Source: Pantoea deleyi
GTDB lineage: Bacteria; Pseudomonadota; Gammaproteobacteria; Enterobacterales; Enterobacteriaceae
Length of the DNA stretch: 64,000 nucleotides
Direction: 5' to 3'
Assembly (NCBI RefSeq): GCF_022647325.1
Contig: NZ_CP071405.1
Coordinates: forward strand, 992,001 to 1,056,000
The notes beneath the pieces were generated by a model. That model was not told where the DNA came from and did no database searches. It worked only from the letters and a program-made list of their open reading frames with translations. Positions within the stretch are counted from its first letter, which is position 1; each line of letters opens with the position of its first letter. Position numbers and translations under genes: made by a program. This document shows, piece after piece, positions 9,209-31,467 of the stretch.

Positions 9209-9263
9209 AAAGGGACGCGGCTCCGGTCTGCCGGGGCATTTTTACCTCACGGAGAGAAAAAGA

Positions 9264-11231
9264 GTGAAGATTTCCATGACACCGGCAGTGAAAGCCGGGC
9301 TGCTCGCACAGCTGATTGCCGCCGCGATGCCGGTGATGGCGGAGGATGCCCGCGAAGCAGACAGTGAAGATCAGATGGTGGTGACGGCCTCCGCGATCGA
9401 ACAGAACCTGAAGGATGCGCCAGCCAGTATCAGCGTGATTACCCGCGACGATCTGCAGAAAAAACCGGTACAGAACCTTAAAGAGGTGCTGAAGGATGTG
9501 CCCGGCGTGCAGATTACCAACGAAAGTGACAACCGGCAGGGCGTCAGCCTCCGCGGGCTGGGCAGCAGCTATACGCTGATCCTGATCGATGGCAAACGCG
9601 TTAACTCCCGCAACGCCGTCTTCCGCCACAACGATTTTGATCTGAACTGGATCCCGGCCGACGCGATTGAACGGATCGAAGTAGTGCGCGGGCCGATGTC
9701 CTCCTTATATGGCTCCGATGCGCTGGGCGGCGTGGTCAACATCATCACCCGTAAAGTGGGCACGGAATGGCACGGCACGCTGAGCGCCGACACCACCGTT
9801 CAGGCGCACCGCGACCGCGGCGACAGCGGCAACGGAAGCTTCTTTACCAGCGGGCCGCTGGTGGAGGATCTACTGGGCGTGAAAGTGTATGGCGCGCTGG
9901 GTAAACGCAACAAAGATCAGGCCCGCTCCGCCAGCGGCAGCACGGGTCAGCCGCGCATCGAAGGCTCGACCTCCCGTAACGCCAACGTCGAATTCTCCCT
10001 GACGCCGGACAAGGATCAGGACATCACATTCGGCTATGGAAAGGATCGTCAGGATCGGGATTCCGATACCCTGGATAAAAACCGTCTCGAACGCGAAAAC
10101 TACTCGCTCGGCCATACGGGCCGCTGGGGCGGGGCGAATACCGAACTGCGTTTCTACGGTGAGAACATCAAAAATAAAAACGCGGAAACCATCACGTCAA
10201 AAAACAACTCACTCGACGGCAAAGTGGTTATCCCGCTGGGCGAATATACTCAGTTCCTGACGTTTGGCGGTGAATACCGTAACGATAAGCTGGAAGATGC
10301 CTTAAACATGAAAAACGGCGGCAGCACGCAGGCAAATCAGTATGCGCTGTTCCTGGAAGATGAGTGGCACATCCTGGAAAATCTGGCGCTGACCGGCGGC
10401 GTGCGCATGGATGACCACGAAAACTATGGCGTCAACTGGAGTCCGCGTGCGTATCTGGTCTATGACGCGACGGACAGCATCACGATGAAAGGGGGCTGGG
10501 CATCTGCCTTTAAAGCGCCGTCGCTGCTTCAGCTCAGCCCGGACTGGCAGAGCACCTCCTGTCGCGGCAGCTGTAACGTCGTCGGCAGTAAAGATCTGAA
10601 AGCGGAAACCAGCGAAAGTCTGGAGTTCGGCCTCTATTACACCGGTCAGAAAGGGCCGCTGGAGGGCGTCACCGCCAGCGCGACGGTGTTCCAGAACGAC
10701 ATCGACGATATGATCACGGTGATCCGTACCGCTAACCGCGGTCTGGCCCCGACCTATCAGAACTTTGCTGGCTTCGACGCCAGCGGCAATCCGATCTTCC
10801 GTTATTACAACGTAAACAAAGCGCGTATCCGCGGGCTGGAAACCGAGCTCGGCCTGCCGTTGAGCGACACGCTGAACCTGAAGCTCAATTACACCTACAA
10901 CGACGCCCGCGACCTGAGTAATGGCGGCAATAAACCGCTGTCTGAACTGCCGTTCCACACCAGCAACGCCACGCTCGACTGGACGCCGCTGGTGGACTGG
11001 AGCTTCTACCTTTCCGCGAATTACAAAGGTCAAAGCCGCACCGTCACCAACGGCAACGCCACGCCAGGCGGCTACACGATCTGGAATGCGGGCGGGTCAT
11101 ATCAGGTGAGTAAAGCGGTGAAGATCCGGGCCGGGGTGCTGAACCTGACCGATAAAGATCTCAATCGCGACGACTACAGCTACAACGAAGATGGCCGCAG
11201 ATATTTCGCGGCGGTGGATTACAGTTTTTAA
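9264..11231 (+). CDS. cirA: Catecholate siderophore receptor CirA (TonB-dependent, outer membrane)
   Basis: 655 aa TonB-dependent receptor that follows E. coli CirA (663 aa) throughout. Visible in order: signal peptide, TonB box region DQMVVTAS, plug domain (SVEQ-like [69 protein letters not shown]), then the 22-stranded barrel with [13 protein letters not shown] and a C-terminal [15 protein letters not shown] ending in Phe. GTG 9264-9266 is chosen because GGAG lies 9 bases before it; ATG 9276 lacks a spaced ribosome site. In E. coli CirA takes up monomeric catecholates and serves as receptor for colicins Ia/Ib and some microcins. Its 3' end is duplicated at 13203-13330. Confidence 0.93.
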
Positions 11232-11265
11232 GGGGAAGTGCTGGCCGGGGCTTCGGGTCCCGGCT
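11138..11265 (+). repeat. Direct repeat copy 1: 3' end of cirA plus hairpin
   Basis: 128 bp comprising the last 31 codons of cirA and the following hairpin; it recurs with two mismatches at 13203-13330. This copy is the functional gene end. Confidence 0.9.
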
Positions 11266-11273
11266 GTTTTAAT
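11243..11273 (+). terminator. Intrinsic terminator of cirA
   Basis: GCCGGG-GCTTCGGGT-CCCGGC followed by TGTTTT, directly after the cirA stop codon. The second repeat copy has the stem but not the T tract. Confidence 0.65.
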
Positions 11274-11516
11274 AGGGTTATCCGCGAGTCTGACAGGTTC
11301 GCCATCTGGTTTACGGTTTTGTCAGGAGAGCGGGAGAGGCAGAAAGACTTACCGTACTGGATAAACAGGAACAGCGGACGCTGGTTGAACTGACGTCCTC
11401 ATCTCCTGATAGAGTTTATGGCTGATATGGCTGCTACACCCGACCGTATGTCAGTCTCTTTTCTGTCTTTTGGCTTAATGCATAATCTGTCGAATGCAAC
11501 AGCCCCGGATTATGGC
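11274..11516. other. Intergenic region downstream of cirA
   Basis: No convincing gene. A plus-strand frame at 11418-11699 runs antisense through the following gene and has neither a recognisable domain nor a good ribosome site. The region separates the cirA terminator from the convergent toxin/immunity-type pair. Confidence 0.5.
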
Positions 11517-11990
11517 CTAACGACGACGATCAATTTTAGCGGGGGCGGGATCGGCAGAGATATCAATAAATTTCCTGACTCCCATTGGGCGGTTTACCCC
11601 ACGAGGATCAGAGAAGGGCAGTTTGAGGATGGGAGATGTCGAGACTTTTACTGTCCATGTGGTATCCCCAATAAAGCGGAAGCTGGCGGAGTGGGATGAA
11701 ACGTTCAGCTCCTCAAAGTGACCCGACATGTAAGCACCACCGAGGGTCAGTTTCTCTACGACGCCCTGTGAGAGATTCAGCAGCAGAAGTGTCAGCATCT
11801 CCTCATAAACGATGTCGTCCGTTACGAATAAAAGATAGTGACGCGAATCGATCTTTATCGCTGCTTCAAGCACTTTACCTGGAATGATAATCCCTGTCGG
11901 ATGACCGCTTATCAGGACTTCAGAGCGAGCCTGAGACACATCTGTGGCTTCGCTAATTTCTGATAGCGTCAGCGTCGTGACTTCTTCCAT
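11517..11990 (-). CDS. Hypothetical protein, putative immunity partner of the adjacent toxin-like gene
   Basis: 157 aa from ATG 11988-11990 (MEEVTTLTLSEISEATDV). I do not recognise the family. It is predicted soluble: no signal peptide, no long hydrophobic span apart from LLFVTDDIVYEEMLTLLLLN, mixed alpha/beta character. It starts 2 bp after the stop of the upstream 240-codon gene, so the two are surely co-translated. A small acidic-to-neutral protein placed immediately after a membrane-active toxin-like protein is the usual layout of toxin-immunity pairs, hence the tentative call; a chaperone or adaptor is the main alternative. A longer frame to 12083 would overlap the upstream gene and is rejected. 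Confidence 0.5.
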   Translation of the reverse strand: MEEVTTLTLSEISEATDVSQARSEVLISGHPTGIIIPGKVLEAAIKIDSRHYLLFVTDDIVYEEMLTLLLLNLSQGVVEKLTLGGAYMSGHFEELNVSSHSASFRFIGDTTWTVKVSTSPILKLPFSDPRGVNRPMGVRKFIDISADPAPAKIDRRR

Positions 11991-11992
11991 CG

Positions 11993-12715
11993 TTATTTCC
12001 ACCTGTTCCCCATTTCCCATGCGGCTAATGCGCCGCCGGCAAACCCGCCGAGCAGAACGCAGACTGGCGCACCGGGCCCGCACATCAGACCCGCAATAGT
12101 ACCGCCAGCCCAGCCGCCTGCAATACCCGCCCCATTAATAGCAAACTGCCTGCCGGTTTCTGAAACTTTATTATCGGAGGTATAGATTTCATACATGGCC
12201 ACTCCGACAGAAAGAACAATTAACCCTTTAGCTGCCCGTGAGAGTTTCATCATCTTCAGGTTAACCTGAGGATTTGATTTGCCTGCAGACTCTACTATTT
12301 CGGCATAGACCTGATTTTTCTGCATTTCTGATAAGCTGGTAAAATTGGACTTTGGCCCGAATATCGAAGCCGTTTTCCTGGCGACTAACTCATTCAGCGT
12401 TATCCCTGAAGTCTTCATTCTTTCAGCCATAGCTCTGCCCAGCGGCGTACTTCGGGTGCGCACCATTTCCATGATCAGATTTCTGGTTTCCTGAGCCTCA
12501 AGTGCTGCTTTTTCCCAGCTGATTAAGCCGCTATTTGCTTTAGCCCGGAGATCATTAGCCATTTCTTTAATGCGTTTAGAGTACTCAAGACGTAGTCGGG
12601 GATCGACAGACAGCCTCGCGGCCGCCGCCGCTACATCTCCCTGTAAAGAGTTTACTGCGCTTTCAAATTTTGCTTTTCCCTCTGAGTCCAGTGCACTAAG
12701 TAAAGACGTATCCAT
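11993..12715 (-). CDS. Glycine-zipper protein, putative membrane-active bacteriocin/effector toxin
   Basis: 240 aa from ATG 12713-12715, preceded by AGGAA with 6-base spacing; an ATG two codons earlier would sit directly on the ribosome site. The N-terminal half is helical and charged (SLQGDVAAAAARLSVDPRLR; RSTPLGRAMAERMKTSGITL). The C-terminal quarter has a hydrophobic segment GLIVLSVGVAMYEIYTS (about residues 162-178) and then a glycine-zipper hairpin with GAGIAGGWAGGTIAGL and VLLGGFAGGALAAWEMG. Such helical hairpins occur in pore-forming effector and colicin-type toxin domains (family knowledge), and the layout recalls C-terminal toxin modules of polymorphic toxins. It has no signal peptide or secretion domain of its own. 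Toxin activity is inference. Confidence 0.55.
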   Translation of the reverse strand: MDTSLLSALDSEGKAKFESAVNSLQGDVAAAAARLSVDPRLRLEYSKRIKEMANDLRAKANSGLISWEKAALEAQETRNLIMEMVRTRSTPLGRAMAERMKTSGITLNELVARKTASIFGPKSNFTSLSEMQKNQVYAEIVESAGKSNPQVNLKMMKLSRAAKGLIVLSVGVAMYEIYTSDNKVSETGRQFAINGAGIAGGWAGGTIAGLMCGPGAPVCVLLGGFAGGALAAWEMGNRWK

Positions 12716-13202
12716 CGTCATTTCCTGTAATTGACCAATGTTCCGAATATAACAAATATAACAAGCAGAATAAAAACAGCCCCTTAAAAAATGTGATAGC
12801 AGTCCCTCGTGGTATTTTTTATTAAATTAAATCAGCTGGTTGTGGTGGTGGCCTGGATTGAGGGTAAAATAAGTTGATACTGTGTAGTAACGGAAGAATA
12901 GGTTGTGCATTGCAAGGCGATAACAATTTTATCGTAGCTTTAACTTATTAAAAAATAATTAACAGTGGTTTCCTGTGCGTTTCTGTAACCCTGCTTCCAG
13001 AAATCTTCTGCCTGAATTAAAAAAGAATAATAGCCTTTTGTATCCACCAAAGTAAACGAGCGCGATATGAGTTATGGTTCGGCTTATGAGGAGGAACGAG
13101 TGTAATCATCAGATAACCAATCAGGCGCTCCCGGTTTCAACAAGTAGCCAGCCTGAACGTAATGGTTCCGGGTGTAATTGAAGACACGCGTGATGCCAAT
13201 AC
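12716..13202. other. AT-rich region upstream of the toxin-like gene
   Basis: No gene is supported. It is visibly richer in A+T than the flanks (runs such as ATTTTTTATTAAATTAAATC near 12815-12834) and probably contains the promoter of the minus-strand pair. A short open frame runs into the cirA repeat ([10 protein letters not shown]... up to 13202) but has no start signal that I trust. Confidence 0.45.
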
Positions 13203-13330
13203 GCTGAACCTGACCGACAAAGATCTCAATCGCGACGACTACAGCTACAACGAAGATGGCCGCAGATATTTCGCGGCGGTGGATTACAGTTTTTAAGGGG
13301 AAGTGCTGGCCGGAGCTTCGGGTCCCGGCT
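13203..13330 (+). repeat. Direct repeat copy 2: displaced 3' end of cirA
   Basis: Repeats 11138-11265 with two substitutions (GAC for GAT, GGAG for GGGG). It encodes [12 protein letters not shown] to the terminal YSF and stop, in frame but without the rest of cirA, so it is a gene fragment. The repeat ends exactly at the base of the terminator stem; the T tract is missing and the sequence then diverges (AAGCCC). Confidence 0.9.
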
Positions 13331-13529
13331 AAGCCCATCATGTTTGAGTTGGCAGCGTCCATTCCGGCCAGCCTTCGCGGGGCAGGGCAGCACTGAATAC
13401 GGCAGATGCTATCTGCTTCGCCGGACAATCATCTGACATCCTTATCAACCGGTGAACCAGCCGCCTGGGCTGACAGCGCCATCTGAGATTCCACAGCAGG
13501 CAGGCGACCGGGGTTCGCGGCTTTTAAAA

Positions 13530-14792
13530 TTACTGCTGCGCACGCATAAACCGTGCCCGCCACGGCTTAAGAACCCATAACGCCAGCCCGGCAGTGATAA
13601 AGTCGAAGGTGATCGCGCAGCCAAAAACTAAATGCCAGTTATGGGTGTGCTGATACATCAGCGCCGCCAGCGGGCCGCCGAAGATCGAGCCGATTCCCTG
13701 AGAGATATAGAGCCAGCCATAGTTGGCTGAGGCATTTTCACTGCCGAAGGTGTCGGTGAGCGTGGAGGGGAACAGCGAGAAGATTTCACCCCAGCCGAAG
13801 AAGACGACGCCTGACAGCAGGACGAACAGCAAGGGGTCTTCGCGGCATGCAAGCCACAGCGTCATCGCCACGCCTTCCAGCGCGAAGGCAATAAACATGG
13901 TGTTTTCGCGCCCATAACGGTCGGAGATAAAACCAAACAGCGGTCGCGTTAAGCCGTTGGTGAAACGATCAATGGTGAGCGCGAGCGGTAACGCGGCCAT
14001 ACCGAAAACCACCGCCTTACTGATGCCGAAGTCTTCGGCAAAAATCGCCATCTGCGACGTCACCATCAGTCCCGAGGTCGACATCATCGTCATCATCATG
14101 AACATCAGCCAGAACAGCGGCTGGCGCAGCATTTCCCCGGATTTAAACTGGCGCTGCCCCACTACGGGTGCGGATTTTCTGCTGACCGGTGTCATCATGC
14201 TGGCTTCAGGCAGCCTTAAGTTCTGGCTGGCGAGAAGACCCACGGCGGCGAAGATCAGGCCAAAGACCGTCATGGTCTGTTCGAGGCCGTAACTGTTAAG
14301 CGAGATGGAAATGGGGAAGGTGGTAAAAATCGCGCCCATGCCGTAGCCCGCTGCCACGGTTCCCGCAGCAAAACCGCGCTGCTGTGGAAACCACTTCATC
14401 ACCAGGCCAACCACGCCAATATAAACGATCCCCGTACCCAGTCCGCCCAGGCAGCCATAGACCAGGTAGAGTGATGCCAGGCTGTCGACTCGTGCGGCAA
14501 TCACCCAGCTGAAGCCAGCCATCAGCGTACCGATAGAGATCAGCAGTCGCGGGCCAAAACGCTCGACCAGCCGACCCTGAAAGGGTGAGAAAAAGGTCTG
14601 CAGAATAATCAGCAGCGAGAAGGTAACCTGCAGTTCCGCCAGCCCCACGCCGAGTTTGGCAATCATCGGTTTGGTCAGCAGCGTCCAGACATACTGCGGG
14701 CTGGAAATCGCCGCCATGCAAAGTAAGCCAAGCAGAAGCTGCACCCATTTACTGTGTTTCGCTATTACTACCGGTTCGCTAATTGAGGTCAT
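13530..14792 (-). CDS. MFS transporter, oxalate/formate antiporter (OFA) family
   Basis: 420 aa inner-membrane protein with twelve hydrophobic spans in two halves. The first loop motif GRLVERFGPRLLISIG and the long family motif GGLGTGIVYIGVVGLVMKWF-PQQRGFAAG (about residues 113-142) are typical of OxlT/YhjX-like carriers; the second half has TRPLFGFISDRYGRE. Family members exchange small carboxylates (oxalate/formate in OxlT; YhjX is pyruvate-responsive), but the substrate here cannot be read. It stands alone on the minus strand, flanked by the cirA fragment and by an intergenic region, with no frc/oxc genes nearby, so oxalate is not supported by context. GC content resembles the chromosome rather than the island. 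Confidence 0.75.
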   Translation of the reverse strand: MTSISEPVVIAKHSKWVQLLLGLLCMAAISSPQYVWTLLTKPMIAKLGVGLAELQVTFSLLIILQTFFSPFQGRLVERFGPRLLISIGTLMAGFSWVIAARVDSLASLYLVYGCLGGLGTGIVYIGVVGLVMKWFPQQRGFAAGTVAAGYGMGAIFTTFPISISLNSYGLEQTMTVFGLIFAAVGLLASQNLRLPEASMMTPVSRKSAPVVGQRQFKSGEMLRQPLFWLMFMMMTMMSTSGLMVTSQMAIFAEDFGISKAVVFGMAALPLALTIDRFTNGLTRPLFGFISDRYGRENTMFIAFALEGVAMTLWLACREDPLLFVLLSGVVFFGWGEIFSLFPSTLTDTFGSENASANYGWLYISQGIGSIFGGPLAALMYQHTHNWHLVFGCAITFDFITAGLALWVLKPWRARFMRAQQ

Positions 14793-15306
14793 TGCACTCT
14801 CTCCCAGAATTACGCTCTGTTATGCAGCCAGATTCAGCCTGCTCTGTGCAGAATTTGCTGATGTCGTCTATATCCAGACGGTTAATGGCTGATACAGGTC
14901 TGAGATCCTCAGCCCTGCAGAGCTACGTAATTAAAAAGTTTGCAGGAACTGTGCCAATGTAAAAAACGTTTATTATCAATGGGTAAGTGGATGAGTGAAG
15001 TGATAAGTGTGATGCAGTGCAAAATATCAGTGCGCTGGGTTGGTGCGGGTGAAAGGGGTGCGCGCGGGAAGCGAAGCGGGGATAACTGTGCTTAAGTTGG
15101 GCAGGTTAAGTGGTTTTTGGGAAATTAAAGAGACGAAAAAGCCCGCGGGGTTGCAGGGTTTTTAGGGAGAGGTGGAGGGTGATTGTTAGTCAGGGCTGGT
15201 GGAGTGCAAACAGATACGTCGAGTTGTCCTCTTGCGGGTTATTCGATTCTTTTTTTGCGCCTCACCGGGCACTTATTTTTCCTCATCAAACTCACCTCCC
15301 AGACGT
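14793..15306. other. Intergenic region, no gene seen
   Basis: Holds the probable promoter of the MFS gene (minus strand). A plus-strand frame at 15110-15430 has no recognisable protein. TGGTGGAG at 15198-15205 matches the ssrA 3' end over 8 bases only and is not called as an attachment site. Confidence 0.4.
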
Positions 15307-15603
15307 TTATTTCATAGACGAAAGCTTTCGTACTGTCATCAGAAATTCGCGTGCAGTGGTTTCCCAGAGTTCAGGCGAGAAGTCAAACTCGTATCGTTGC
15401 CTGAATGCCTCTTCAACACCAGAGCCATAAGCGGCGATAAATTCGTCCACCTCTTCGATAAGATCGTTAAGCATCCAGTCTGGCGCAGACTTTTTGTATA
15501 ACCGGATGATTCCCTCAATCGTATCCTCACCATCATTGATGATGTCAGCGTCCTGGTTGAAGTAACCAAAAACCAGTTGATCAAGAAAATAGAAGTTTTG
15601 CAT
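15307..15603 (-). CDS. Orphan CdiI-like contact-dependent inhibition immunity protein
   Basis: 98 aa from ATG 15601-15603, preceded by TAGGT at suitable spacing. The N-terminus MQNFYFLDQLVFGYFNQDAD and the core IEGIIRLYKKSAP... DLIEEVDEFIAAYGSG... YEFDFSPELWETTAREFL resemble the CDI immunity-protein family in which a small acidic protein neutralises the toxin tip of CdiA. No cdiA or cdiB lies beside it, so it is an orphan immunity gene, as commonly found downstream of CDI loci together with IS fragments; an IS3-type remnant lies about 120 bp away. It would protect against a matching CDI toxin of neighbours. The frame extends upstream to 15672 but without a ribosome site. Confidence 0.6.
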   Translation of the reverse strand: MQNFYFLDQLVFGYFNQDADIINDGEDTIEGIIRLYKKSAPDWMLNDLIEEVDEFIAAYGSGVEEAFRQRYEFDFSPELWETTAREFLMTVRKLSSMK

Positions 15604-15723
15604 TTTGTACCTATCAATCCGGGAACGCGGTGAGAATGTAATAAGGTTTGCCGTTATAACGTTGAAACTCAATGATGATTCTCACGTTTGTCATAACTAT
15701 TCCGCATCTGCGTCAGGATACGA

Positions 15724-16165
15724 CAAACTAACATGGTCGATGGATTTCGTTATGGACGCACTAGCCAACTGTAAAAGGATTACGTGCCTGACCTGTGTGG
15801 ATGATTTCACGAAATAGTGTCTGACGATCACCGCTACTTTCGATTCTTCAGGCGTTCAGGTCACGCGTATTCTGGACAACATCGCACTGTTTAGGGGCTG
15901 CTCGGCGACGATAAGAACCGATTAGGGCCTAGATTTTACCTGTCGCGCGCTCGATCAATGGGCTTTTGAGCATAGTGTGGAGTTGCGACCTATTCAGCCA
16001 GGTAAGCTAACGCAGAACGGATTTGTTGAGAGTTTCACCGGTCGCTTTCGAGATTAATGCCTGAATGAACACTGGTTCAGCGATATTCTTCATGCCCGAA
16101 AAATCATTAATGACTGGCGGCAGGACCATAACGAGAGCAGGCCTCATTCATCGCTATTGAGCGTT
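15724..16165 (+). pseudogene. IS3-family transposase OrfB fragment (decayed)
   Basis: The frame reads KLTWSMDFVMDALAN... CVDDFTK, then LDNIALFRGC, TD-stop-GPRF, LRLIQPGKLTQNGFVESFTG, and finally LHARKIINDWRQDHNESRPHSSL. These are the DDE integrase-core landmarks of IS3-group OrfB (first Asp in SMDF, second in the DxGP motif, Glu in GFVESF). Three in-frame stop codons (after DDFTK, in the DxG motif, and after GRFRD) and the missing N-terminus and OrfA show it is dead. It marks past IS activity at the edge of the island. Confidence 0.85.
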
Positions 16166-16698
16166 GTATCTAATACAGGGGACAAGTTACTTGATTATTT
16201 TATAAAAAATAAGCGAGGAGCTTGAGGCTCATTACTTTATCTACCTAAGAGCATATTTTAACCGGTGAAACTATGGTAAAAAATAATCTGACTGGCCATT
16301 CTTATCGATTTTCGGACATTAAATTTAAAGCAACGAGCAGCAAAGCAGTCCAATTGACTTCTTTTATTATGTGCTGAACTCATTGTTTGCTAACTATTGT
16401 AAACAATTGAGGTATATAGAATTGATTATTAGCCTAATTTAGAGGCCTTGGCTGTATGGCACTGTATGTCCAAGGCCCTTTGTAGGCGATATCAATAGTT
16501 TATTGTATACAGATTACAATAAAAGTACATATGCACAGACGACAAGACGCTCTCCCATACTAACAAGAAAAATGAACATCGAGAGTTAAATGACGATCGA
16601 TAAACATACATCTCCCAACTCCGCGACAGTACTGTATTGAGGGATACCAATGAATCCAGTGGGTCTTGAACAACCACTGAATCCTCGATATATACAGG
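16166..16698. other. AT-rich region downstream of rdrB
   Basis: No gene is supported; a 61-codon minus frame at 16492-16677 has low-complexity hydrophobic residues and no ribosome site. An inverted repeat at 16444-16482 (AGGCCTTGG...CCAAGGCC) could end transcripts from either side. Confidence 0.4.
16444..16482. terminator. Hairpin, possible terminator of the rdrAB transcript
   Basis: Eight-base-pair arms GGCCTTGG and CCAAGGCC around a 21-base loop, about 215 bp past the rdrB stop. The T tract is weak, so termination is uncertain; it might equally be the relic of an element end. Confidence 0.35.
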
Positions 16699-19098
16699 TT
16701 AGTTGATGTCATGAAAGCGATAAATCCGTCCATTCTCGTTCACCTCTGCCACCTTTCTTAAAGCCTTCGCTGGCGACAAACCGAATTTTCGAGTTAACAC
16801 AACAAACAGATGATAAAACTCGGATTTCAAATCCGCAGCGAAGATCCCCGGATCATCAGATCCAAGACAAATAGACATAGGAACATCACCTTCAATCGCC
16901 TCACCCGGCAAACCCATCCAGCGAAAGATATGGTGCTCGCTGACATCTCGATACTGGCTGATACGAGTATTGCTGGTCGGAGGGCATTCTATCGCAATGT
17001 TTCGGTCTGCCATTTTTGCCATTACAGCTTGTTGTAAAGCAACAACTGCTTCATCTGGCAAGTATTCTAGGGCAACTTCAACATATTCAGCACGCTGCTT
17101 TCGAATATCGTTAGATGTAAGCCATTGCTTATACAACTTCAGCGGCCTTATCATGTCCGCAGTTTTAGCCAACTCTCTGGCGCGCTCGTACTCTTCCAAC
17201 CAGAGGGATTTAGGTTGAAATGGCCTATTTAGTTCACCCAGTAACCCTTCCGATTCCGCCAACACTCCCCGCATTTGAAATACCTGATCAAGAGTCATAA
17301 TCGAGACTTCTTCTTCCAGCGAAAACACCTTATGAGCAAGACAGACAGCTTCAATCGCTGCATCATTGGCGTAACGCAGCAATTCTGGATGACTTCGAAG
17401 TTCCCGCCAGATAAATACCAAATCGAGCAATCGCGTCTCTTTGGTCATGGACAAAGACAATGGCAAAGAGCGTTTCCAGATGTCAGGTGTGATGCCAATC
17501 GCCGTGCAGTGACCAAGACGGTCGCCATTACGCAATGGCAAAAACCTCAAGGCATCATCAATGGATCGAATACCACTGATCAGATGCGGGAAATCCTCGC
17601 CAACATGATAGGTAAAATGAGCAATACCTGATTTGGCTAACACCCGAAACAATGGGCCAAACAACTCTGGTGGTGCGTGCATCTCATTTGCTGCGGCATC
17701 CACTCCTCGAATCCAGCCTGTCAGGCGCGGTTCATACTTTAGCATGTCCATCAGATTAGCTGCCTGCTTCTTCAGGTCCTTGAATAGCAATGCGTAAGGA
17801 TAGACCTCACCATTTTTTGGCTTTCTTTTGATAAAGTGCGGCACTAGCGCCAGCTCTGCACACTTGCCATGAGGTTCAACCAAGTCGAGATTATCGAGCA
17901 CTTGCGACATAGTCAGGGGCTTTTCATGCACCCATTCCAGAGACATATGAGCACTCAGATATTCCCAATATCCTCTTAACACACTGAAGAGCAGGTTTTG
18001 CATTTTGCTGGGGTCGCTCTTTGGTGCAAAACGTCCTTCCAGATAACGCACCTGAGAGTACACACCAGACCCATGGGCATGTCTAAAACGAGACAAATAA
18101 GATTTCTCGGTTTCCTCTCTTAGCTCTGTCATGGTGTAATTCTGGAACTGATCAAAACCAAAAAAGTCGTCTCGCTGAACCAGTAAGGTCAAGTACTGAT
18201 TTTGAATCAGAAGATAAATCCAAAGCAGTCGTTCCAATCCTTCGGGCGCACCATACCGCCATTTTTCGAACAACCCGATTAACCAGCAAAATTCAGATTC
18301 CTGACTGTATTTGTCGTCTGTTGGCCAAACAGTCCTAAACCCATACTCCTGGCCATGATGCAGAATCGTGCTATCCGCCAACTGCTGCGGGTTCTGCAGT
18401 GATACAATCCACTCTGGCAACTCCACTCCCTGAGAGACCCGACAAAGAATTTCGCGAATATTGCTGGCGATCTGCAAACGATCATTAAAGATTTTAGGTG
18501 TCAGAGAGGGATCAATCTGGGCGCAAAGTTGTTTCATCTCTTGAGATGACCAACCCTTCTCGAAATCACTGACGCTAACTTCTGGATGCTTAAGCGCATC
18601 CAGCCAACACTCTTCCGCACTGGTACTGCCATTCAAATGTTGGTGAGTTTCGTGTAGGTGTTCACGGGTAATGTAGTCCTCAACAGCCGGATGATATGGA
18701 TATAAAGGCCAGCGAAAGCTATATCCCTGACTGGAAGGTCCAGAGTTAAATATCTGATGACACGCCATAATTGGCAGGTACGACACTCGGCTCATTAGCG
18801 TTTGCCATTCCGAAAACAAAGATAGGTTGATTTTGGGGCCACCTTTCTCATTTTTAATAAACTTTTCAGCTACTAGGCGTAGGGTTGCTACTGGGCCAAG
18901 TTTCATATTCCGTTGTTTGATTTGCTGCACTAAAGATGACCATGCCGATTTGCTAACATGATCAGGCAAACTATGCACTCGTTCATATTGAGCAAGGAAC
19001 ACCGATGATTCCACCCGCTCATCAATTGATGCCTCATCCAAAGAGACGGTGCTCAGCCTATGCAATAGTACTGTTGAGTTAAGAAGAAAGCTTTCCAT
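16699..19098 (-). CDS. rdrB: RADAR antiphage system, adenosine deaminase subunit RdrB
   Basis: 799 aa, roughly twice the length of housekeeping adenosine deaminase, with all metal and catalytic motifs: zinc ligands in HQHLNGS (about 152-158), the catalytic Glu in HVGED (about 498-502), RLGHC (about 527-531), CPPTSN (about 705-710) and the metal-binding Asp pair in LGSDDPGIF (about 746-754). RdrB of RADAR assembles into a dodecameric shell and, with RdrA, deaminates adenosine in RNA or adenine nucleotides after phage infection (established for the family). ATG 19096-19098 is chosen because AAGGA lies 6 bases upstream; a TTG two codons earlier is less likely. It follows rdrA by 26 bp on the same strand, and its base composition is AT-richer than the core genome. 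Confidence 0.9.
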   Translation of the reverse strand: MESFLLNSTVLLHRLSTVSLDEASIDERVESSVFLAQYERVHSLPDHVSKSAWSSLVQQIKQRNMKLGPVATLRLVAEKFIKNEKGGPKINLSLFSEWQTLMSRVSYLPIMACHQIFNSGPSSQGYSFRWPLYPYHPAVEDYITREHLHETHQHLNGSTSAEECWLDALKHPEVSVSDFEKGWSSQEMKQLCAQIDPSLTPKIFNDRLQIASNIREILCRVSQGVELPEWIVSLQNPQQLADSTILHHGQEYGFRTVWPTDDKYSQESEFCWLIGLFEKWRYGAPEGLERLLWIYLLIQNQYLTLLVQRDDFFGFDQFQNYTMTELREETEKSYLSRFRHAHGSGVYSQVRYLEGRFAPKSDPSKMQNLLFSVLRGYWEYLSAHMSLEWVHEKPLTMSQVLDNLDLVEPHGKCAELALVPHFIKRKPKNGEVYPYALLFKDLKKQAANLMDMLKYEPRLTGWIRGVDAAANEMHAPPELFGPLFRVLAKSGIAHFTYHVGEDFPHLISGIRSIDDALRFLPLRNGDRLGHCTAIGITPDIWKRSLPLSLSMTKETRLLDLVFIWRELRSHPELLRYANDAAIEAVCLAHKVFSLEEEVSIMTLDQVFQMRGVLAESEGLLGELNRPFQPKSLWLEEYERARELAKTADMIRPLKLYKQWLTSNDIRKQRAEYVEVALEYLPDEAVVALQQAVMAKMADRNIAIECPPTSNTRISQYRDVSEHHIFRWMGLPGEAIEGDVPMSICLGSDDPGIFAADLKSEFYHLFVVLTRKFGLSPAKALRKVAEVNENGRIYRFHDIN

Positions 19099-19124
19099 AC
19101 CCAATCCTTATACGAAGGCCATTA

Positions 19125-21968
19125 TTATTTTTCTACGCCGTCACTTGATGAAGGCAATTTGGATTTCCTGGCTGGTGTAGCCTTATCGTACAATGCTCCG
19201 ACGATTGTAGCAGAATTAAGCGATGTTATAGTGTTTTGAGATGTTTGTTGTTTGATGTCTAATTGTCGACTATCATTTTTAGATAGATACTCCCATTCTT
19301 CTTCAGAAAGTAATTTATTGCCAATAATTTCATTAATCAGTTTAAGGAAATTTTTTTCCTTGCTCAGTGCTTTGGCTGAACAATTAACTCCACCTACTGG
19401 AAAAATGAACGGATGCAGGATTGGACAGCTAATTAATAAAAAAAATAATGGGTGGGTGTCTTTCCATTTTTTATTATCCGCTTTCAATTCTAAATTCATT
19501 ACATTTATTTTTTTTTCAAATTCATCAACCGAAGTAACTGGGTTTAATCTTAACCCTTCACCGATATATTCCCTGTCACTAGCCGAATGATATAAGCTTT
19601 CTTCAACCAATACCGCATGAAGAAAAGCCAAAACATTAAAACGCATAATTTTTGCAGCATTTGATTGACTAGCCATTTTTCCATGCTCTGCATCATTATA
19701 GAGCCTAGTTTTATGCTGATCAGCCACATTATTGAGGTTGAAATAGAACCGAGTCCATACTTTACCAATCAAAAGCGCCGATGGACGAATTTTAACCTCA
19801 ATTTCATTTACTTTTTCAAGCCATTGCTCAACTTTTTCAATTGCATTAGAGAATTCTGTTGTGTCATCCTGCTGACTGTCATCAGTTATGCCATCATCCC
19901 TGGGATCAAGATCAAAATCCAAAACAGCAGTATTGTTATCCGCACTTTTACTTGCACCTTTCATTTCTGCACGAGTAGCAGCCTCGCTCCACGGGGGAAC
20001 AATACATGTTGTCTGAGCTATAATTTTATTAAAAGCATTAGCGATGGCAGGCCTTTCACGACCGCAAGCAGAGATATCTGCAATAGCACCAATCAGATTA
20101 AAAACACTACTGAAATCCATGAGATTACTTGAAGCTACTGTACTTAAGGAAGCCGCCATTGCAGCTTTTGCCAAGCCATGCTCTGTATCAATGTTAAATT
20201 TTTTGTAACCCTCAGGCATCTTTTGGCGTGATTTACGATTTAACTGCACCATGCCAAGAAAAACGCCAACCTTTTCATCATTAGGGTTGTTTGCAACCAC
20301 AGCACAACATCGATTAGCCCAATGTGAGGCGCTTTCAATTCTACCAACAGACATATAGGCCACATATTCACTAACAAGCTGTTCGAATTTTTCTCTATTA
20401 TTTTCAGCCTGTGCTAACTCGGTCACAAATTGGTTGAATATGCTTACGGAACCACAACCAACCAAAAACATCTGTAGGAACTTTGACAGACTGCCCTGAC
20501 AGTTTTCACTTACCTGAGACGCCAAATAAATAGAGCAATTTCTTAATGCCTCACTTTCAGACTGAGGCCGCAAATAAAAGCCGGTATTAAAATCACGATC
20601 CTGCTTTACATAGGTGAATATATCCTTACAAAGCGAATCCATACCAAACCGATGTTGTTCATAATTCAACCCCGCACGATAAATGCTGCTTAGCATCGAA
20701 CCATATAAGGCATTTCTAAGTAAATTCGGAACTGATAACTCATCAGGTCTTTGATTTCTGCCTTGTTTAAAATCATGTTTTACCGATGTAGCATGAAATT
20801 TTTTGGTATAAAAGTCTTGAAGCACCTGCATCAACAACCGCACTGGCTGCTTCAGCAGTTCATTCACATACATGTCTGCATCAGAGCCCTCTCTCAAATT
20901 AAGGCCTTCCCTAACAGCATCACCAATCGCTTGCCGAATATCTATGGCTGCAATATCCTGCATGCCAAGCTCGGTTTTAACCTTGATTTTCTCTTTACTG
21001 ACTTTTCCCTTTTCGCCGACCAGTTGCAACATGGTTTTCAATTGAATACGCTTTTGTACTGGGAACAGTTTTAATAAATATTGCTGTTCAAGGTGTTCGA
21101 CCATGTAGCCTCGCTCTGCTAAGCGGGCGCTTTCTTTTTCCTGATCGAGCAAAGTTTTGCTGTAATTTTCGTATTGCTTACCACGAATCAATTGGGAATA
21201 TAAGCGCAAGTCACCTGTCGCCACCACCACCAAATTCTGGCTGTTAAAGAATTTACGTATAGATTCAAGTACATCCCAACCCGTTTCAAACTGAGTATCA
21301 ATATCATCAAACGAGATTAAAATGGCTTTGCAGCCGAGAATTTTACATGCATGCTCAACTAGCTTCTCAAAGATTTCTGATAAATCCTGGCCACCAATTG
21401 AGTAATCAAGCTGTGCATCCAGCTTCAAAGCATCACTGAAATATTCCGGCTTATATTCCTTGTCTGTAAGCAGATGTAAACCACGCTGGAGCTGCGCAAG
21501 ATAATTCTGCCATTGTTCCTTTTGTTTTGTATGGCCATTCGACGACCAGTATCCTTTTAACTTGTCGGACACCATTTTATTCAGACGGGCAGTCACAGTG
21601 ACCAAAATGGGCTCATGACGCGGCAACTTGGTAGGGTCGATGGTCGGCAAACACTTGATGCTGACTTTGACATCACCTTCGTCACTGTTCAGAGCTTTGA
21701 CCACACTATTGATAAAAGTGGTTTTACCCGCGCCACGAGTACCATCCACAAAAAATACATTACGTCCGGACTCATCAATAAATCGTGTTAGCTCAGCAGA
21801 CTTATCTGCGTCAGAAGGGGTAACTGAGTTCCGGATACTCACGACCAACTGATCACGCAGAGATTTCTGAATGAGATCATCTTCTTTTGTACTGCCCGGA
21901 AGGTTGGGTGCAAACAAGTTGATGATGATATTTCTCTCGGTATTTGTAGTCTGTAAGCTGTCTGTCAT
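19125..21968 (-). CDS. rdrA: RADAR antiphage system, AAA-type ATPase subunit RdrA
   Basis: About 947 aa. A P-loop ATPase domain lies near the N-terminus: Walker A GTRGAGKTT (about residues 76-84), Walker B ILISFDDIDTQ (about 216-226) and a sensor-like LVVVATGDLRLY (about 246-257). The remainder is a long helical region with no other enzyme motif. This size, fold order and placement directly before rdrB are those of RdrA, the heptameric ATPase that works with RdrB in phage defence (established). Start ATG 21966-21968 (MTDSLQTTNTERNIIINLF) is preceded by GGA 11 bases away; the frame stays open to an ATG at 22037 without a ribosome site, so up to 23 extra residues remain possible. First gene of the operon unless the small gene at 22235-22504 is real. 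Confidence 0.88.
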   Translation of the reverse strand: MTDSLQTTNTERNIIINLFAPNLPGSTKEDDLIQKSLRDQLVVSIRNSVTPSDADKSAELTRFIDESGRNVFFVDGTRGAGKTTFINSVVKALNSDEGDVKVSIKCLPTIDPTKLPRHEPILVTVTARLNKMVSDKLKGYWSSNGHTKQKEQWQNYLAQLQRGLHLLTDKEYKPEYFSDALKLDAQLDYSIGGQDLSEIFEKLVEHACKILGCKAILISFDDIDTQFETGWDVLESIRKFFNSQNLVVVATGDLRLYSQLIRGKQYENYSKTLLDQEKESARLAERGYMVEHLEQQYLLKLFPVQKRIQLKTMLQLVGEKGKVSKEKIKVKTELGMQDIAAIDIRQAIGDAVREGLNLREGSDADMYVNELLKQPVRLLMQVLQDFYTKKFHATSVKHDFKQGRNQRPDELSVPNLLRNALYGSMLSSIYRAGLNYEQHRFGMDSLCKDIFTYVKQDRDFNTGFYLRPQSESEALRNCSIYLASQVSENCQGSLSKFLQMFLVGCGSVSIFNQFVTELAQAENNREKFEQLVSEYVAYMSVGRIESASHWANRCCAVVANNPNDEKVGVFLGMVQLNRKSRQKMPEGYKKFNIDTEHGLAKAAMAASLSTVASSNLMDFSSVFNLIGAIADISACGRERPAIANAFNKIIAQTTCIVPPWSEAATRAEMKGASKSADNNTAVLDFDLDPRDDGITDDSQQDDTTEFSNAIEKVEQWLEKVNEIEVKIRPSALLIGKVWTRFYFNLNNVADQHKTRLYNDAEHGKMASQSNAAKIMRFNVLAFLHAVLVEESLYHSASDREYIGEGLRLNPVTSVDEFEKKINVMNLELKADNKKWKDTHPLFFLLISCPILHPFIFPVGGVNCSAKALSKEKNFLKLINEIIGNKLLSEEEWEYLSKNDSRQLDIKQQTSQNTITSLNSATIVGALYDKATPARKSKLPSSSDGVEK

Positions 21969-22701: not shown

Positions 22702-23943
22702 TCAGACTACAAGTTTTAACTCTCTTTTCCCGGAATCCGCAATGTTTCTACTTTCGGCTTTGTTCAAAAAGTCATCCCATTATTGCATCATTGGAAGACG
22801 TTGCTCAAGATAATCAATGCGGTTATAAGCATGACGTGCCTCTTTTTTGTCTATATGAGCAAGCGCAGTCTCAATAACATCAGTAGGAAAGCCTTCTTTA
22901 TTGAGTGCCGTACTGGCGATAGAACGCAAACCGTGAGATACGAGTCCCCCTCCTAATCCAGCGAGCTTGAGTGCTGCATTCACTGTCAGGCTGTTGATCT
23001 GCTGGGTTGCTTTGATGCGACTACGAAAGATAAACTCTCGGCTACCACTGAGAGGCTTTATAATTTCCAGAATAGCGAGAGCTTCATCAGATAATGGAAA
23101 CGTATGGCCTCGGTTCATTTTCATTCGAGTAGCAGGAATCTTCCATTCGCTGGCATTGAAATCGATCTCATCTCATAGAGCTCCAGCCGCTTCGGCAGGG
23201 CGGGTAATAGTAAGAAGTTGCCACATTAATAAGCAGCGTGTGGAAAGGCTTATGCTGGCTGTTCGCATAGTCTGCCTCAGTTGAGGTAGCTGATCCAGTC
23301 GAATGCTGTGCATGTTCTTTTTCTGCGGCTTCTCGAATGCTTTGCCAATATTAACGCTGGGTACCGCATCAATGAGCCCTGTATTCTGGGCATAGATCAT
23401 GACCTCATTTATGCGCTGGCACAGGCGACGAACGGTCTCCAGCGCTCCTCTGGCCTGAACAGGTTGCACGGCCTGAACCAAAGTATGAGCTTTAATATCT
23501 GTAACGCCAACGTCGCCAATCGCAGGAAAGACATCTCTTTCCAGAGCTCGCCAGATATCCTCCGCATAGCCCTCTTTCACACTGGCTTTCTTCACATACC
23601 ACCAACGTTCTGCCACGAGCTGGAAAGTATTGGTTTTGGCTTCAAGCGAACTACGCTGTTGTTCTTGCTGTTGTTCCTGGGGAGCGATTTGTTTCGCCAG
23701 GAGAGAACGAGATTCTGCCCTATAGCTTCGAGCATCGGCAAGCGTAACTGACGGGTAGGGGCCAATGCTCTTTTTCGCTCACTTCTTGGTGACGGGACGA
23801 ATGTAGCGAAATTGCCAGATTTTACTCCCGCCGGATTTGATGAGTAACTCAAGGCCATCGTCATCATAGAGCACATAGTCCGCTTCCTTAGGTTTGGCAG
23901 ATTTGATTTCCTTAACGGAGAGAGGTTTCGTTTGTCTTGCCAT
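22702..23943 (-). pseudogene. intA: CP4-57-type P4-family integrase (IntA/SlpA), inactivated by three nonsense codons
   Basis: Read through, 413 codons, exactly the length of E. coli IntA of prophage CP4-57, which it follows closely: MARQTKPLSVKEIKSAKPKE at the start, AERWWYVKKASV, QPVQARGALETVRRLCQRIN in the core-binding domain, TITRPAEA with the first catalytic Arg, SHGLRSIAST (His-x-x-Arg) and AYNRIDYLEQR with the Tyr nucleophile. In-frame stops are TGA at 23779-23781 (codon 55), TGA at 23173-23175 (codon 257, where Trp is expected) and TAA at 22780-22782 (codon 388, where Trp is expected). No frameshift is seen. It abuts the 3' end of ssrA, the known CP4-57 attachment gene, so it is the relic that installed this island. 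Confidence 0.92.
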
Positions 23944-24068
23944 TGCCGGGTTTCCATAGTTTTAGGCACCTCAAAAACAATAAAGCTTTATGAGGTGCCT
24001 AACAAGGTGCCCAAAAGGTTCGGATTTAATTAGTTGAGTTCGAACTTTGCGGGATAAATTGAGGGCAC

Positions 24069-26371: not shown

Positions 26372-26557
26372 CTAAACATTCCTTTTCCGGGGCCAAACGC
26401 CTTTAGCAGGCGGTTTTCTTGCCATCAAAATCTGAACTCTGCCTGCGGCAGGCTTTATTACTCTGGCGACATAAGTGCCGATGATAATAAACCTTTTCGC
26501 TGTTGGAAACCTCTACAGAGCAAGCATATGACCACGGTGGGTTAAAAAAGTGCGCTG

Positions 26558-28219
26558 CTATGCGGCTAAAAGTTCTTTTGCGTTCGCCAGGGTATTGCGG
26601 GTGACCTCGCTGCCGCCCAGCAGTCGCGCCAGTTCCTGCAGACGCGCCCGCTTGTCCAGCGGCTGCATGTGCGTTTCGGTCATCGCGCCATCGGTCTCTT
26701 TACTCACGTAGAAGTGCTGATGACCACACCCCGCGACCTGCGGCAGATGCGTCACACACATGACCTGCGTGGACTCGCCCAGCTGACGCAGCAGTTTACC
26801 AACCACCGCAGCGGTCGGGCCGCTGATCCCGACATCGACTTCATCGAAAATCATCGCCGGAGTTTCCATTTTCTTCGCGGTAATCACCTGAATCGCCAGC
26901 GCGATACGGGACAGCTCGCCACCGGAGGCAACTTTACCCAGCGGCTGCAGAGGCTGGCCCGGGTTAGTCGTCACCTGGAAATCGACGCGGGTGGCGCCGT
27001 CTGCGGTAAGCTGGTCCGGATTAAAGGTCAGCACGATGCGGAACTGGCCGTGCGGCATAGAAAGCAGGTGCATACTCTGGGTAATCAGCTGTTGCAGTTC
27101 GTCGGCGTAGTGACCGCGCTGCAGATGCAGCTGCTCCGCGCTTTTCAGCGCGGCCTGATAGTGCTCACCAACCAGCGACTGCAGGCTCTCCTGGTCGCTC
27201 TCATGCTGAGACAGCAGCTCGGCTTCTGCCAGCAGTTGCTGATGCAGTTCAGGCAGCCCTTCCGGCGTGACGTGATGCTTACGCGCCAGAGCAATCTGAC
27301 GCGAAATTCGCTGTTCCAGTTCATACAGGCGGTTCGGATCCAGATCCAGGCTGTCGCAGTAGTGGCGCAGCTCGTCGCTGGCTTCGCTCAGCTGAATCGC
27401 CGCCTCTTCCAGCAGGTTGTGCACGCCATTCAGCTTCTCATCCAGCGAGGTGAGTTCAGCGATCATTTCACGCGCGCTGTAGAGCAGGCTGTGAAGGTTG
27501 TTGTCGTCACTGTCGGCCAACAGTTGCAGCGCCTGCTGACTGGTGGAGAGCAGCTGGCCGCTGTTGGCCAGGCGCTTGTACTCTTCGTCGATCTGCTCAT
27601 ATTCGCCCTGCTGCGGCGCAAAGTCATTCAGCTCTTTCAGCTGATACTGCAGCAGCTCGCGACGTGCTTCGCGCTCCTGCGCCTGCTGCTGATGCAGCGC
27701 CAGGGTGCGGCAGCTCTGGTGCCAGGTCTGATAACTGGCGCGCATCCGCTGCAGCAGATCGTCATGACCGGCATAGGCATCCAGCAGATGTTTCTGGTGA
27801 TCGGGCTTAAGCAGAAGCTGATGGGCGTGCTGACCGTGGATCTGAATCAGTAACTGGCCGAGATCGCGCAGCTGAGAAAGCGGCACGGCCGTGCCGTTGA
27901 TAAAGCCGCGGGAGCGACCGTCTGCACTGATGACGCGGCGCAGCAGACATTCGTTGCCGTCATCCAGATGGTTTTCTGTCAGCCAGCGCTGGGCAGAAGG
28001 GGAGGATTTAAGCTGGAAGCGGGCGCAGAGATCGGCCCGGCTGGCACCCTGACGCACCATGTCGGCATCGGCACGACCACCCAGACATAACCCCAGCGCA
28101 TCGATCGCAATGGACTTACCGGCACCGGTCTCACCCGTGATTGCTGTCATACCGCGTTGGAAATCAATGTCGAGCTCACGAACGATAGCAAAGTTACTGA
28201 TGGTCAGTTGGGCCAGCAT
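26558..28219 (-). CDS. recN: DNA repair protein RecN
   Basis: 553 aa, exactly the length of E. coli RecN. SMC-like ATPase for double-strand break repair: Walker A GETGAGKS near residue 32, two long coiled-coil arms rich in Gln/Glu/Leu in the centre, and the C-terminal signature [15 protein letters not shown] with Walker [17 protein letters not shown] 28217-28219 ([16 protein letters not shown]) is chosen; the frame stays open a further eight codons without homology. Two LexA-type boxes lie directly upstream, so it is an SOS gene. Confidence 0.97.
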
Positions 28220-28245
28220 AGGTTCACCTGTACGAATAAACACAT

Positions 28246-28283
28246 ATGGTTTTTCATACAGTATAAACTGGTTTTTTATCCAG
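28246..28283 (-). promoter_or_regulatory. Tandem LexA (SOS) boxes of recN
   Basis: On the minus strand CTGGATAAAAAACCAG (28268-28283) fits CTG-N10-CAG, and CTGTATGAAAAACCAT (28246-28261) fits with one mismatch. They flank and overlap TATACTGTAT, the probable -10 region, as in E. coli recN. Confidence 0.8.
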
Positions 28284-28303
28284 TAAAGAGGGGAGGCCGG
28301 ATT

Positions 28304-29182
28304 TCAGAACAATTTTTTTGACCAGCCCAATTTAGAGCTCAGCGTATTGAAATAACTGTAATTTTTTGGGTGTATCAGGTTGAGATGATTGGCGCTGCGC
28401 CGGATAAGCACATCCTCACCTTCCTGGATCGGCAGTGCGATCTGGCTGTCGCAGCTGATTTCCAGGTCGCTGCGGCGCGAAGAAAAGCGCAGGCGAATGG
28501 TGCTGCTGCTGTTGATCACCAGCGGTCTTGCCGAGAGCGTATGCGGGAACATCGGCACCAGCACGATAGCTTCCAGAGAAGGTGTCAGGATCGGCCCGCC
28601 CGCAGAGAGAGAGTAGGCTGTCGAGCCGGTCGGCGTGGAGATAATCAGTCCGTCGGAGCGCTGAGAGAAGGCGAACACTTCATCGATATAGACTTCGAAT
28701 TCGATCATGTGCGCGACTTTACCGGGATGCAGCACCACTTCATTGATGGCTGAGCCGATGCGCGGCGAGCAGTCCGACTTGCAGACCTGCGCTTCCAGCA
28801 GAAAGCGGCTCTCGACGAAATAGTTGCCCTGCAGCACCTCATCCAGCTGCTGCTGCGCATTGTCCGGGTCCAGGTCAGTCAGAAAGCCCAGGTTGCCGCG
28901 GTTAATGCCGATCACTTTGATGTCATAACGCGCCAGCACGCGCGCCGCGCCCAGCATGTTGCCGTCACCGCCGACCACGACCGCTAAATCCGCCTGCTGA
29001 CCAATCTCCGCCAGCGTGCCCGTTTCTGCGTCGTGAAGCGACAGCTCCTGCGTAATCTGCTTCTCAACGATCACTTGATAACCTTTGGCCGTCAGCCAGC
29101 GCCAGAGCATCTCATGCGTGGTCAACGCGGTGGGATGGCGCGGATGACCCACAATACCAATGCAGTTAAAGTGTTTGTTCAT
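28304..29182 (-). CDS. nadK: NAD kinase
   Basis: 292 aa, E. coli length. ATP-dependent phosphorylation of NAD to NADP, the only route to NADP. Visible: [13 protein letters not shown] near residue 71 (GGDG motif), [10 protein letters not shown] near 95, [20 protein letters not shown] and [21 protein letters not shown] near 180, [15 protein letters not shown] near 210. ATG 29180-29182 ([16 protein letters not shown]) matches the enterobacterial start; the frame's extension to 29269 is not conserved. Divergent from grpE. Confidence 0.97.
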
Positions 29183-29233
29183 CTGGTCGGTGTTCCTTAT
29201 AAGCCAAAACGGCAAGGCAATGTGATAGGTTCC

Positions 29234-29260
29234 CTTGAATCCGTCATACCAATCCCCATA
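29234..29260 (+). promoter_or_regulatory. Sigma-32 heat-shock promoter of grpE
   Basis: CTTGAA (29234-29239), 14-base spacer, CCCCATA (29254-29260), a near-perfect RpoH promoter about 45 bp before grpE. Confidence 0.85.
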
Positions 29261-29304
29261 ATAAGCCAACCAGCGAAATGAATGTGCAAAACGCGGAGAA
29301 ATTC

Positions 29305-29886
29305 ATGAGTAGTAAAGAACAGAACACCCCAAACGAGCAAGTCTCAGACGAAATTCAGCAGGATCAGCAGCAACCTCAGGACGCGGAGACAGCAACAGAG
29401 GTGGATCCGCGTGATGAGCGTATCGCTCAGCTCGAAGCTGAATTAGCGCAGTCGCAGACCGGTGTACGCGATGCCCAGCTACGTGCGCAGGCTGAAATCG
29501 AGAACATTCGTCGTCGTACTGAGATGGACGTTGAGAAGGCGCACAAGTTCGCGCTGGAAAAGTTTGCTAACGAACTGCTGCCGGTTATCGACAGCCTGGA
29601 ACGTGCGCTGGAAGTCGCGAACAAAGAAGATCCACAGCTGGCGTCGATGATTGAAGGGATCGAACTGACCCTGAAAGGCCTGCTGGGTGCCGTGCGTAAG
29701 TTCGGTGTCGAAGTGGTCGGAGAGACAGGCGTGCCGTTCAACCCGGAAGTGCATCAGGCGATGTCGATGATGGAGTCTGAAGAGTTTGAGCCGAACCATG
29801 TCATGCTGGTGATGCAGCGTGGCTATACGCTGAATGGTCGCCTGCTGCGTCCGGCGATGGTGGCGGTGGCCAAAGCCAAAAGCTGA
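29305..29886 (+). CDS. grpE: Nucleotide exchange factor GrpE
   Basis: 193 aa (E. coli 197). GrpE releases ADP from DnaK. The N-terminus is acidic and unstructured ([19 protein letters not shown]), followed by a long dimerisation helix ([20 protein letters not shown]), the four-helix bundle, and the C-terminal beta domain with [15 protein letters not shown] and [21 protein letters not shown] 29305 (MSSKEQ) is preferred over the in-frame ATG at 29278 by homology. Preceded by a sigma-32 promoter. Confidence 0.97.
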
Positions 29887-29904
29887 TTCATCCCGGAATC
29901 CCTG

Positions 29905-29932
29905 ACACGGCCGCGCACTGACGCGGCCGTGT
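29905..29932. terminator. Hairpin between convergent grpE and ung
   Basis: Eleven-base-pair perfect stem ACACGGCCGCG / CGCGGCCGTGT with a six-base loop. It lacks a T tract but is well placed to end both transcripts. Confidence 0.55.
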
Positions 29933-29943
29933 GCGTTCTGGCG

Positions 29944-30624: not shown

Positions 30625-30778
30625 ATTTCACTCCCTTCGCGTTAATGTCAGTAAGCTTAGCGGTTCCGGGCACAGAGCAGAAGGTAAAATAATTTGAAAA
30701 AATACAAATTAAGTTGAAGGCGAGGGCGTTGTGAGATCAAGGGGTTAGCGTGAAAGGCGATGTTATGGCTGATTAATA

Positions 30779-31453: not shown

Positions 31454-31467
31454 ATTGCGGCGACGAT

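Follow-up and report, generated by a model that had tools for sequence, protein, structure and literature searches.

How does RADAR notice phage, and what can one more copy of a solved system say about it? The question is raised by a locus on contig NZ_CP071405.1 of Pantoea deleyi, where a stretch of 64,000 nucleotides (positions 992,001 to 1,056,000, numbered here from 1 and called the window) carries rdrA and rdrB. According to the available text of PMC9994260, the E. coli system converts ATP and dATP to ITP and dITP during phage infection and performs no RNA editing in vitro, and its heptameric RdrA docks on an RdrB dodecamer. The same text states that the trigger is unknown and hypothesizes that the C-terminal domain of RdrA is the sensor (sections 9 and 14). 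The wording "acting on RNA", with which the initial annotation introduced the system, belongs to the founding name only, the published substrate of the deaminase being ATP/dATP.

The two genes stand in tandem on the same strand, as RADAR requires, both are full length, and neither contains a stop or a frameshift; the coordinates in the initial annotation, which named no strand, were exact, and positions, sizes and spacing are listed in Table 1. RdrA matched the solved E. coli RdrA (8hr7) with 1862 bits over residues 1–947, and RdrB matched the solved E. coli RdrB (8fnw) with 1684 bits over residues 1–798 of 799 (phmmer). Matches of such size exclude chance. The proteins of the E. coli MSI001 copy, which are 87.3% (RdrA) and 90.1% (RdrB) identical to those of the window, scored 2126 and 1855 bits against the solved chains. 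In a search with PADLOC, the best profiles were RdrA (70.5 bits) and RdrB (89.1 bits), with no unrelated pair. The earlier identification as a complete RADAR operon thus holds, on near end-to-end matches to the solved chains and open reading frames, and as judged from sequence the operon is an intact RADAR of the E. coli type, a further copy of the solved system. Its genes had also been described as AT-richer than their surroundings, and the GC content was indeed 42.9% in 16699–21968 against 55.9% in the whole window.

Table 1. Features of the RADAR locus and of the adjoining ssrA region, in window coordinates.
Feature	Position	Strand	Basis
rdrB, 799 aa, adenosine-deaminase-like	16699–19098	minus	ORF; 8fnw match; PADLOC RdrB; Pfam A_deaminase
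rdrA–rdrB gap, 26 bp, with AAGGATTGGGT stretch ahead of the rdrB start	19099–19124	minus	
rdrA, 947 aa, class I C-terminal module	19125–21968	minus	ORF; 8hr7 match; PADLOC RdrA
rdrA codons 284–947, exchangeable: AAA+ lid with sensor 2 R377 and alpha-helical C-terminal domain	19125–21119	minus	
Inferred recombination switch, RdrA residues 278–286, relative to class II copies	21111–21137	minus	Synonymous-site change point
rdrA codons 1–283, backbone: Walker A/B, sensor 1, RdrB-docking crown	21120–21968	minus	Residues; silent-site change point
Integrase gene, broken: 22780–23124, 23173–23616, possibly 23592–23969	22780–23969	minus	ORFs
ssrA (tmRNA), tag ANDENYALAA	24147–24508	minus	ARAGORN

The NCBIfam families NF041743 and NF041744 have cut-offs that the window proteins missed (134.1 of 600 and 115.5 of 800 bits), and these proteins were not assigned to the two equivalogs. 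The E. coli MSI001 copy missed the same cut-offs with 128.8 and 118.6 bits, and since this copy matches the solved chains, the two families exclude the E. coli type. In the records examined, proteins of this type were named "archaeal ATPase", "adenosine deaminase" or "hypothetical protein".

The claim that the active-site residues are intact was borne out: 18 residues with catalytic or interface roles were checked, the zinc ligands of RdrB among them, and each was present at the numbering of the structure paper (residues for ATP hydrolysis, docking, zinc binding, catalysis and dodecamer assembly as given in the available text of PMC9994260). RdrA has the AAA+ core (Walker A G81, K82 and T83; Walker B D221 and D222; sensor 1 D253; sensor 2 R377) and the crown residues that dock RdrB (K150, E151 and R162). 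RdrB has the zinc histidines H152, H154, H498 and H530, the catalytic glutamate E501, and the three-fold interface glutamates E595, E596 and E597 for dodecamer assembly.

When the window was compared with related loci by BLASTN, every locus was similar without interruption through rdrB and the initial third of rdrA, and the rest of rdrA fell in a similarity gap in five (L004, L005, L010, L015 and L016). The RdrA proteins carry one of two C-terminal versions: class I, found in the window and the solved structures, and class II, found in a Pantoea plasmid, some E. coli, Klebsiella and others. In class II relatives the DNA similarity to the window returned at about position 19110, in the rdrB start region. 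The copy on plasmid pPAT9B05 of Pantoea sp. At-9b has the same gene order as the window and is 94% identical to it in RdrA 65–310 and 88.2% in RdrB. Unlike the window, it has a class II module, with RdrA 331–947 only 48% identical when codons are aligned (41% counting gaps) and saturated at silent sites. Four-fold silent divergence between the window and this copy (L016) was 18% in RdrA 65–310 (90 sites), 67% in RdrA 331–947 (103 sites) and 26% in RdrB (302 sites), and the corresponding values for a class I copy from Edwardsiella were 18, 19 and 19%. A change point at synonymous codons was placed at residue 284 against At-9b (2-lnL interval 278–286, delta lnL 67.6) and at residue 283 against E. 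coli W284 (277–284, delta lnL 63.0), whereas three class I controls gave a delta lnL of 2.4, 1.2 and 1.8, i.e. no jump. Synonymous codon differences rose from 11% to 57% at residue ~284. Because silent sites diverge too, mere fast protein evolution is ruled out. At the protein level, class differences begin only past residue 320, and residues 269–298 are 96–97% identical within as well as between classes. The third-position GC was 0.40–0.55 in codons 1–283 and 0.31–0.38 after them in all 14 copies measured.

The same partition was found across the family, in protein lists that held the best 120 of 430, the best 120 of 153 and the best 120 of 200 matches, so that further classes are possible. 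Nearly all listed copies were 86–95% identical to the window in RdrA 65–310, the exceptions being two short proteins (P0046 and P0121) and the window's own cluster (P0001). In RdrA 330–947, class I proteins among the matches listed were 60–99% and class II proteins 39–42% identical to the window, and the truncated P0121 was 51% identical. Pairwise comparison of the matches listed gave 80–99% identity in the N-terminal part and 44–51% in the C-terminal part for 1,320 between-class pairs, 80–100% and 59–99% for 1,770 class I pairs, and 81–98% and 68–97% for 231 class II pairs. Fixed class differences among these matches numbered 0 before residue 321 and 69 later, counting aligned residues from 29 on. 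P0002 and the Serratia marcescens protein P0141 were 99.3% identical in the N-terminal part and 47.2% in the C-terminal part. E. coli has copies of both classes, as do, by the listed names, Aeromonas veronii, Shewanella algae and Klebsiella variicola. It is unlikely that class II is an assembly error because its genes stand in complete records (E. coli W284 and plasmid pPAT9B05). A query with the N-terminal part of the Salinivibrio protein returned no third C-terminal class among the best 120 of 200 matches, the nine new proteins (P0133–P0141) all being class II, and alignment of the module alone returned solely RdrA-like proteins in the best 120 of 153, with candidates limited by length. The class II protein of At-9b matched the solved RdrA with 1121.6 bits (query 1–867 to chain 1–886, the last ~50 residues remaining unaligned). 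A predicted structure of this protein, from a 24-row alignment, was unusable (mean pLDDT 46.7, pTM 0.37), and the case for class II being homologous to the solved RdrA is therefore a sequence-based one.

Trees of the separate parts disagreed about the classes. One group in the N-terminal DNA tree (14 rows), with support of 100/99, united the window with Rosenbergiella, Edwardsiella, two E. coli copies of class I and the class II copies of W284 and At-9b; a single class II clade cost 91.6 lnL (p-AU 2.2e-5). In the RdrB tree (12 rows, leaving out Kluyvera and E. coli 1303 with their broken rdrB), six of those seven again grouped together (100/99), and a single class II clade was rejected, being 118.1 lnL lower (p-AU 2.1e-7). 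The C-terminal tree in turn rejected the seven-member enterobacterial clade of the N-terminal tree (305 lnL lower, p 9.6e-4). The clades tested were named after the mosaic was known from BLAST, and these AU p-values are thus optimistic. The enterobacterial clade is shared by the RdrB and N-terminal trees, which disagree elsewhere (Idiomarina moves).

The recurrence of the exchange was counted on a protein tree of the N-terminal parts of 82 RdrA (60 of class I and 22 of class II), thinned from 149 rows of the matches listed by removing near-copies. P0001 (the window's cluster), the short or cut P0046, P0121 and P0134, and P0024, in which the cut motif was not found, were left out of this tree, and L014 and L100–L102 were outside its set. 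The tree required 17 class changes (bootstrap 16–18), at least 10 of them forced by well-supported (starred) branches. With class shuffled on the same tree the mean was 19.7 changes, and 29 and 54 of 500 shuffles gave as few as 17. A hand-picked subset of 38 rows (25 class I and 13 class II, mostly species-named but including P0002, which has no species name) required 9 changes, 5 of them forced. Class differentiation was −0.053 in the N-terminal part, below 298 of 300 label shuffles, and 0.479 in the C-terminal part, a value that none of 300 label shuffles reached. Taken at the level of these trees, module exchange has occurred many times. Recombination is well supported as the process by which the back two thirds of RdrA, in two versions, has been exchanged repeatedly over a shared machine.

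By homology with the E. coli system, the window RdrA would form a heptameric AAA+ funnel whose crown docks on the RdrB dodecamer, and upon phage infection RdrB would make ITP and dITP from ATP and dATP and phage growth would halt. For the family as a whole, the sequences show one recombining backbone, made of RdrB and RdrA from residue 1 to ~283, that bears either of two RdrA C-terminal modules; recombination has exchanged these modules many times, switching near residue 284 and returning at the rdrB ribosome-binding region. Taken as one explanation, an intact E. coli-type RADAR in the window together with such a mosaic family is very probable. The exchanged module probably recognizes phage, in which case its replacement would alter the phage signal to which an unchanged effector responds. 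We incline slightly toward the further reading that the C-terminal two thirds of RdrA is a swappable phage-recognition cassette, with two ancient classes of module reshuffled by recombination on a common chassis for ATPase docking and deamination, and the trigger being changed by cassette exchange and not by point mutation. A shared crown, Walker motifs and RdrB combined with an exchanged lid and C-terminal domain is the pattern expected of a phage-recognizing domain, and supports, without proving, the published sensor hypothesis. The exchange bounds the swappable unit to residues ~284–947, and this unit, which includes the AAA+ lid, is more than a candidate sensor alone.

In type I restriction HsdS and in NLR-like receptors, a conserved effector machine is combined with an exchangeable recognition part. 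If the cassette reading is true, RADAR retargets by cassette exchange as restriction specificity subunits or NLR receptors do, a likeness limited in that the recognition role of RdrA is hypothetical and only two module classes were seen among the matches listed. What is new is the mosaic pattern of the family; the locus itself is ordinary, yet it gives a handle on how RADAR notices phage. Natural pairs with N-terminal parts 97–99% identical and modules ~47% identical, such as P0002 and P0141, make the sensor hypothesis testable, and the window and Pantoea At-9b are a class I/class II pair within one genus for asking if the module sets phage recognition. In the available text of the literature searched, which included PMC9994260, PMC12948488 and PMC10952713, an exchange of RdrA modules was nowhere mentioned.

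A different function for the exchange would be counter-defense: both modules may recognize the same phage signal, with exchange favored as an escape from phage inhibitors of one form. The same sequence pattern would be expected, and the divergence between the classes is strongest at the far C-terminal end and in residues 659–718, but no phage inhibitor of RADAR was found in the available text of the literature searched, and we regard this account as unlikely. It is unlikely that the exchange is without function, two old alleles being reshuffled neutrally by homologous recombination in conserved flanks. Such reassortment is consistent with a switch in the near-invariant stretch 269–298 and in the conserved region of the rdrB start, and with the nearly random placement of class on the N-terminal tree, but both classes are found in the same species without intermediates (C-terminal identity of 44–51% between and at least 59% within classes). 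Co-occurrence of the classes without intermediate modules suggests that something keeps both forms.

The window copy could also be a relic with open reading frames that is silent or inactive. The adjoining integrase is broken, and related loci include a broken rdrB, with rdrA open, in Kluyvera (L010, split ORFs) and in E. coli 1303 (L014, two annotated CDS), but both window ORFs are full length with every checked residue in place, and the differences between close class I copies are largely silent (dN/dS 0.06 in residues 65–320), which makes a relic very unlikely; this predominance of silent change means that the RADAR family is under constraint. That there was no exchange, rapid evolution of the C-terminal part under selection on a single shared backbone being enough, is scarcely credible, for although C-terminal parts vary more within class I too, silent sites jump at ~284, the class I controls do so nowhere, and the trees conflict.

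Within class I, the dN/dS was 0.58 in residues 881–947, compared with the low value in 65–320, and this is read as weaker constraint and not as proof of positive selection. Positive selection is not claimed, as the Nei–Gojobori dN/dS of six copies was below 1 in all nine regions, residues 881–947 being the highest. In four class I copies, a crude ratio of amino-acid to silent-site change rose above 1 in some bins of 40 residues.

Compared with the E. coli RADAR (8hr7, 8fnt and 8fnw; PMC9994260), the window copy shares the gene order, the lengths of 947 and 799 aa, the 18 residues and the class I module, and differs in host genus, in its neighborhood of ssrA and a broken integrase, and in 10–13% of residues. 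The RADAR systems of Citrobacter rodentium and Streptococcus suis are alike in the pair of AAA+ ATPase and deaminase and in their sites, as described in the available text of PMC9994260, which gives 22–28% identity in conserved regions for the systems tested. The type III CRISPR protein Cad1 is, like RADAR, an ATP-to-ITP deaminase effector, but unlike RADAR it is activated by cyclic oligoadenylate via a CARF domain in one protein and has no AAA+ partner, by the available text of PMC11645235. The window RdrB has a weak profile match (31.4 bits) to PADLOC CARF5--CARF_ADA.

The system had been called uncommon, and the surveys agree. Of 79 genomes searched, two had RdrB: the window's own and G022, the latter being the only one with it among 47 others of the genus, while 31 further genomes of the order had none; the G022 copy is placed as on plasmid pPAT9B05. 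Operon DNA occurred in 4 of 5,426 complete E. coli genomes. A search with the N-terminal part of RdrA gave three close matches of the E. coli type (the window, G350 and G111) and five distant ones at 25–37% among 394 genomes of the order, and none besides the window's own among 369 genomes of the class. Ten named genome loci with 68–91% RdrB identity came from enterobacteria, Shewanella, Salinivibrio, Neiella, Oceanobacter and Idiomarina, together with one distant fragment (38%). Among 72,556 plasmid records, 7 had a relative of RdrB, a single one of which was more than 60% identical; none of 50,697 phage records had one at E 1e-5. Three IMG/VR contigs carry RADAR. Holin, endolysin and spanin genes lie near the class I copy on L101, and repressor and replication genes near that on L102; because these neighbors are phage genes, some RADAR copies ride in prophages.

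The initial annotation had placed the operon in an "ssrA-anchored island", which is borne out only in part. A broken integrase does sit next to ssrA, between it and rdrA and upstream of the latter, its first two pieces matching Pfam Phage_integrase and positions 274–387 and 111–255 of NCBIfam PRK09692, and the DNA past ssrA varies among relatives, but no attachment repeat was found. The window holds no second copy of the ssrA end within 3 mismatches, and neither 9000–17200 nor 26500–34000 contained an exact direct repeat of 14 bases from the region of the ssrA end; in the whole genome the ssrA-end sequence recurs at one place only, far away and with 2 mismatches. In seven same-genus genomes compared, RADAR was absent beside ssrA, and similarity to the window ended at or just past the ssrA end, to be followed by differing DNA (the L083 contig ends early). 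No tmRNA gene was found in the examined stretches of 16 related RADAR loci. The surroundings of ssrA would fit an integration hotspot.

Several smaller features lie on the other side of the operon. A lone immunity gene of the CdiI_2 type (15307–15672, minus strand; Pfam, 84.8 bits) and an MFS transporter gene (13530–14792) have counterparts near ssrA in G016 and G025. The 456 bases at 15700–16155 are 86.7% identical to 5167–5623 of the Enterobacter locus L005 and have no long ORF; by eye, they look like a putative transposase remnant. Two overlapping ORFs of 242 and 188 aa at 11517–12721 (minus strand) had no Pfam or PADLOC match, and a similar stretch lies near ssrA in G025; they are possibly a candidate effector–immunity pair.
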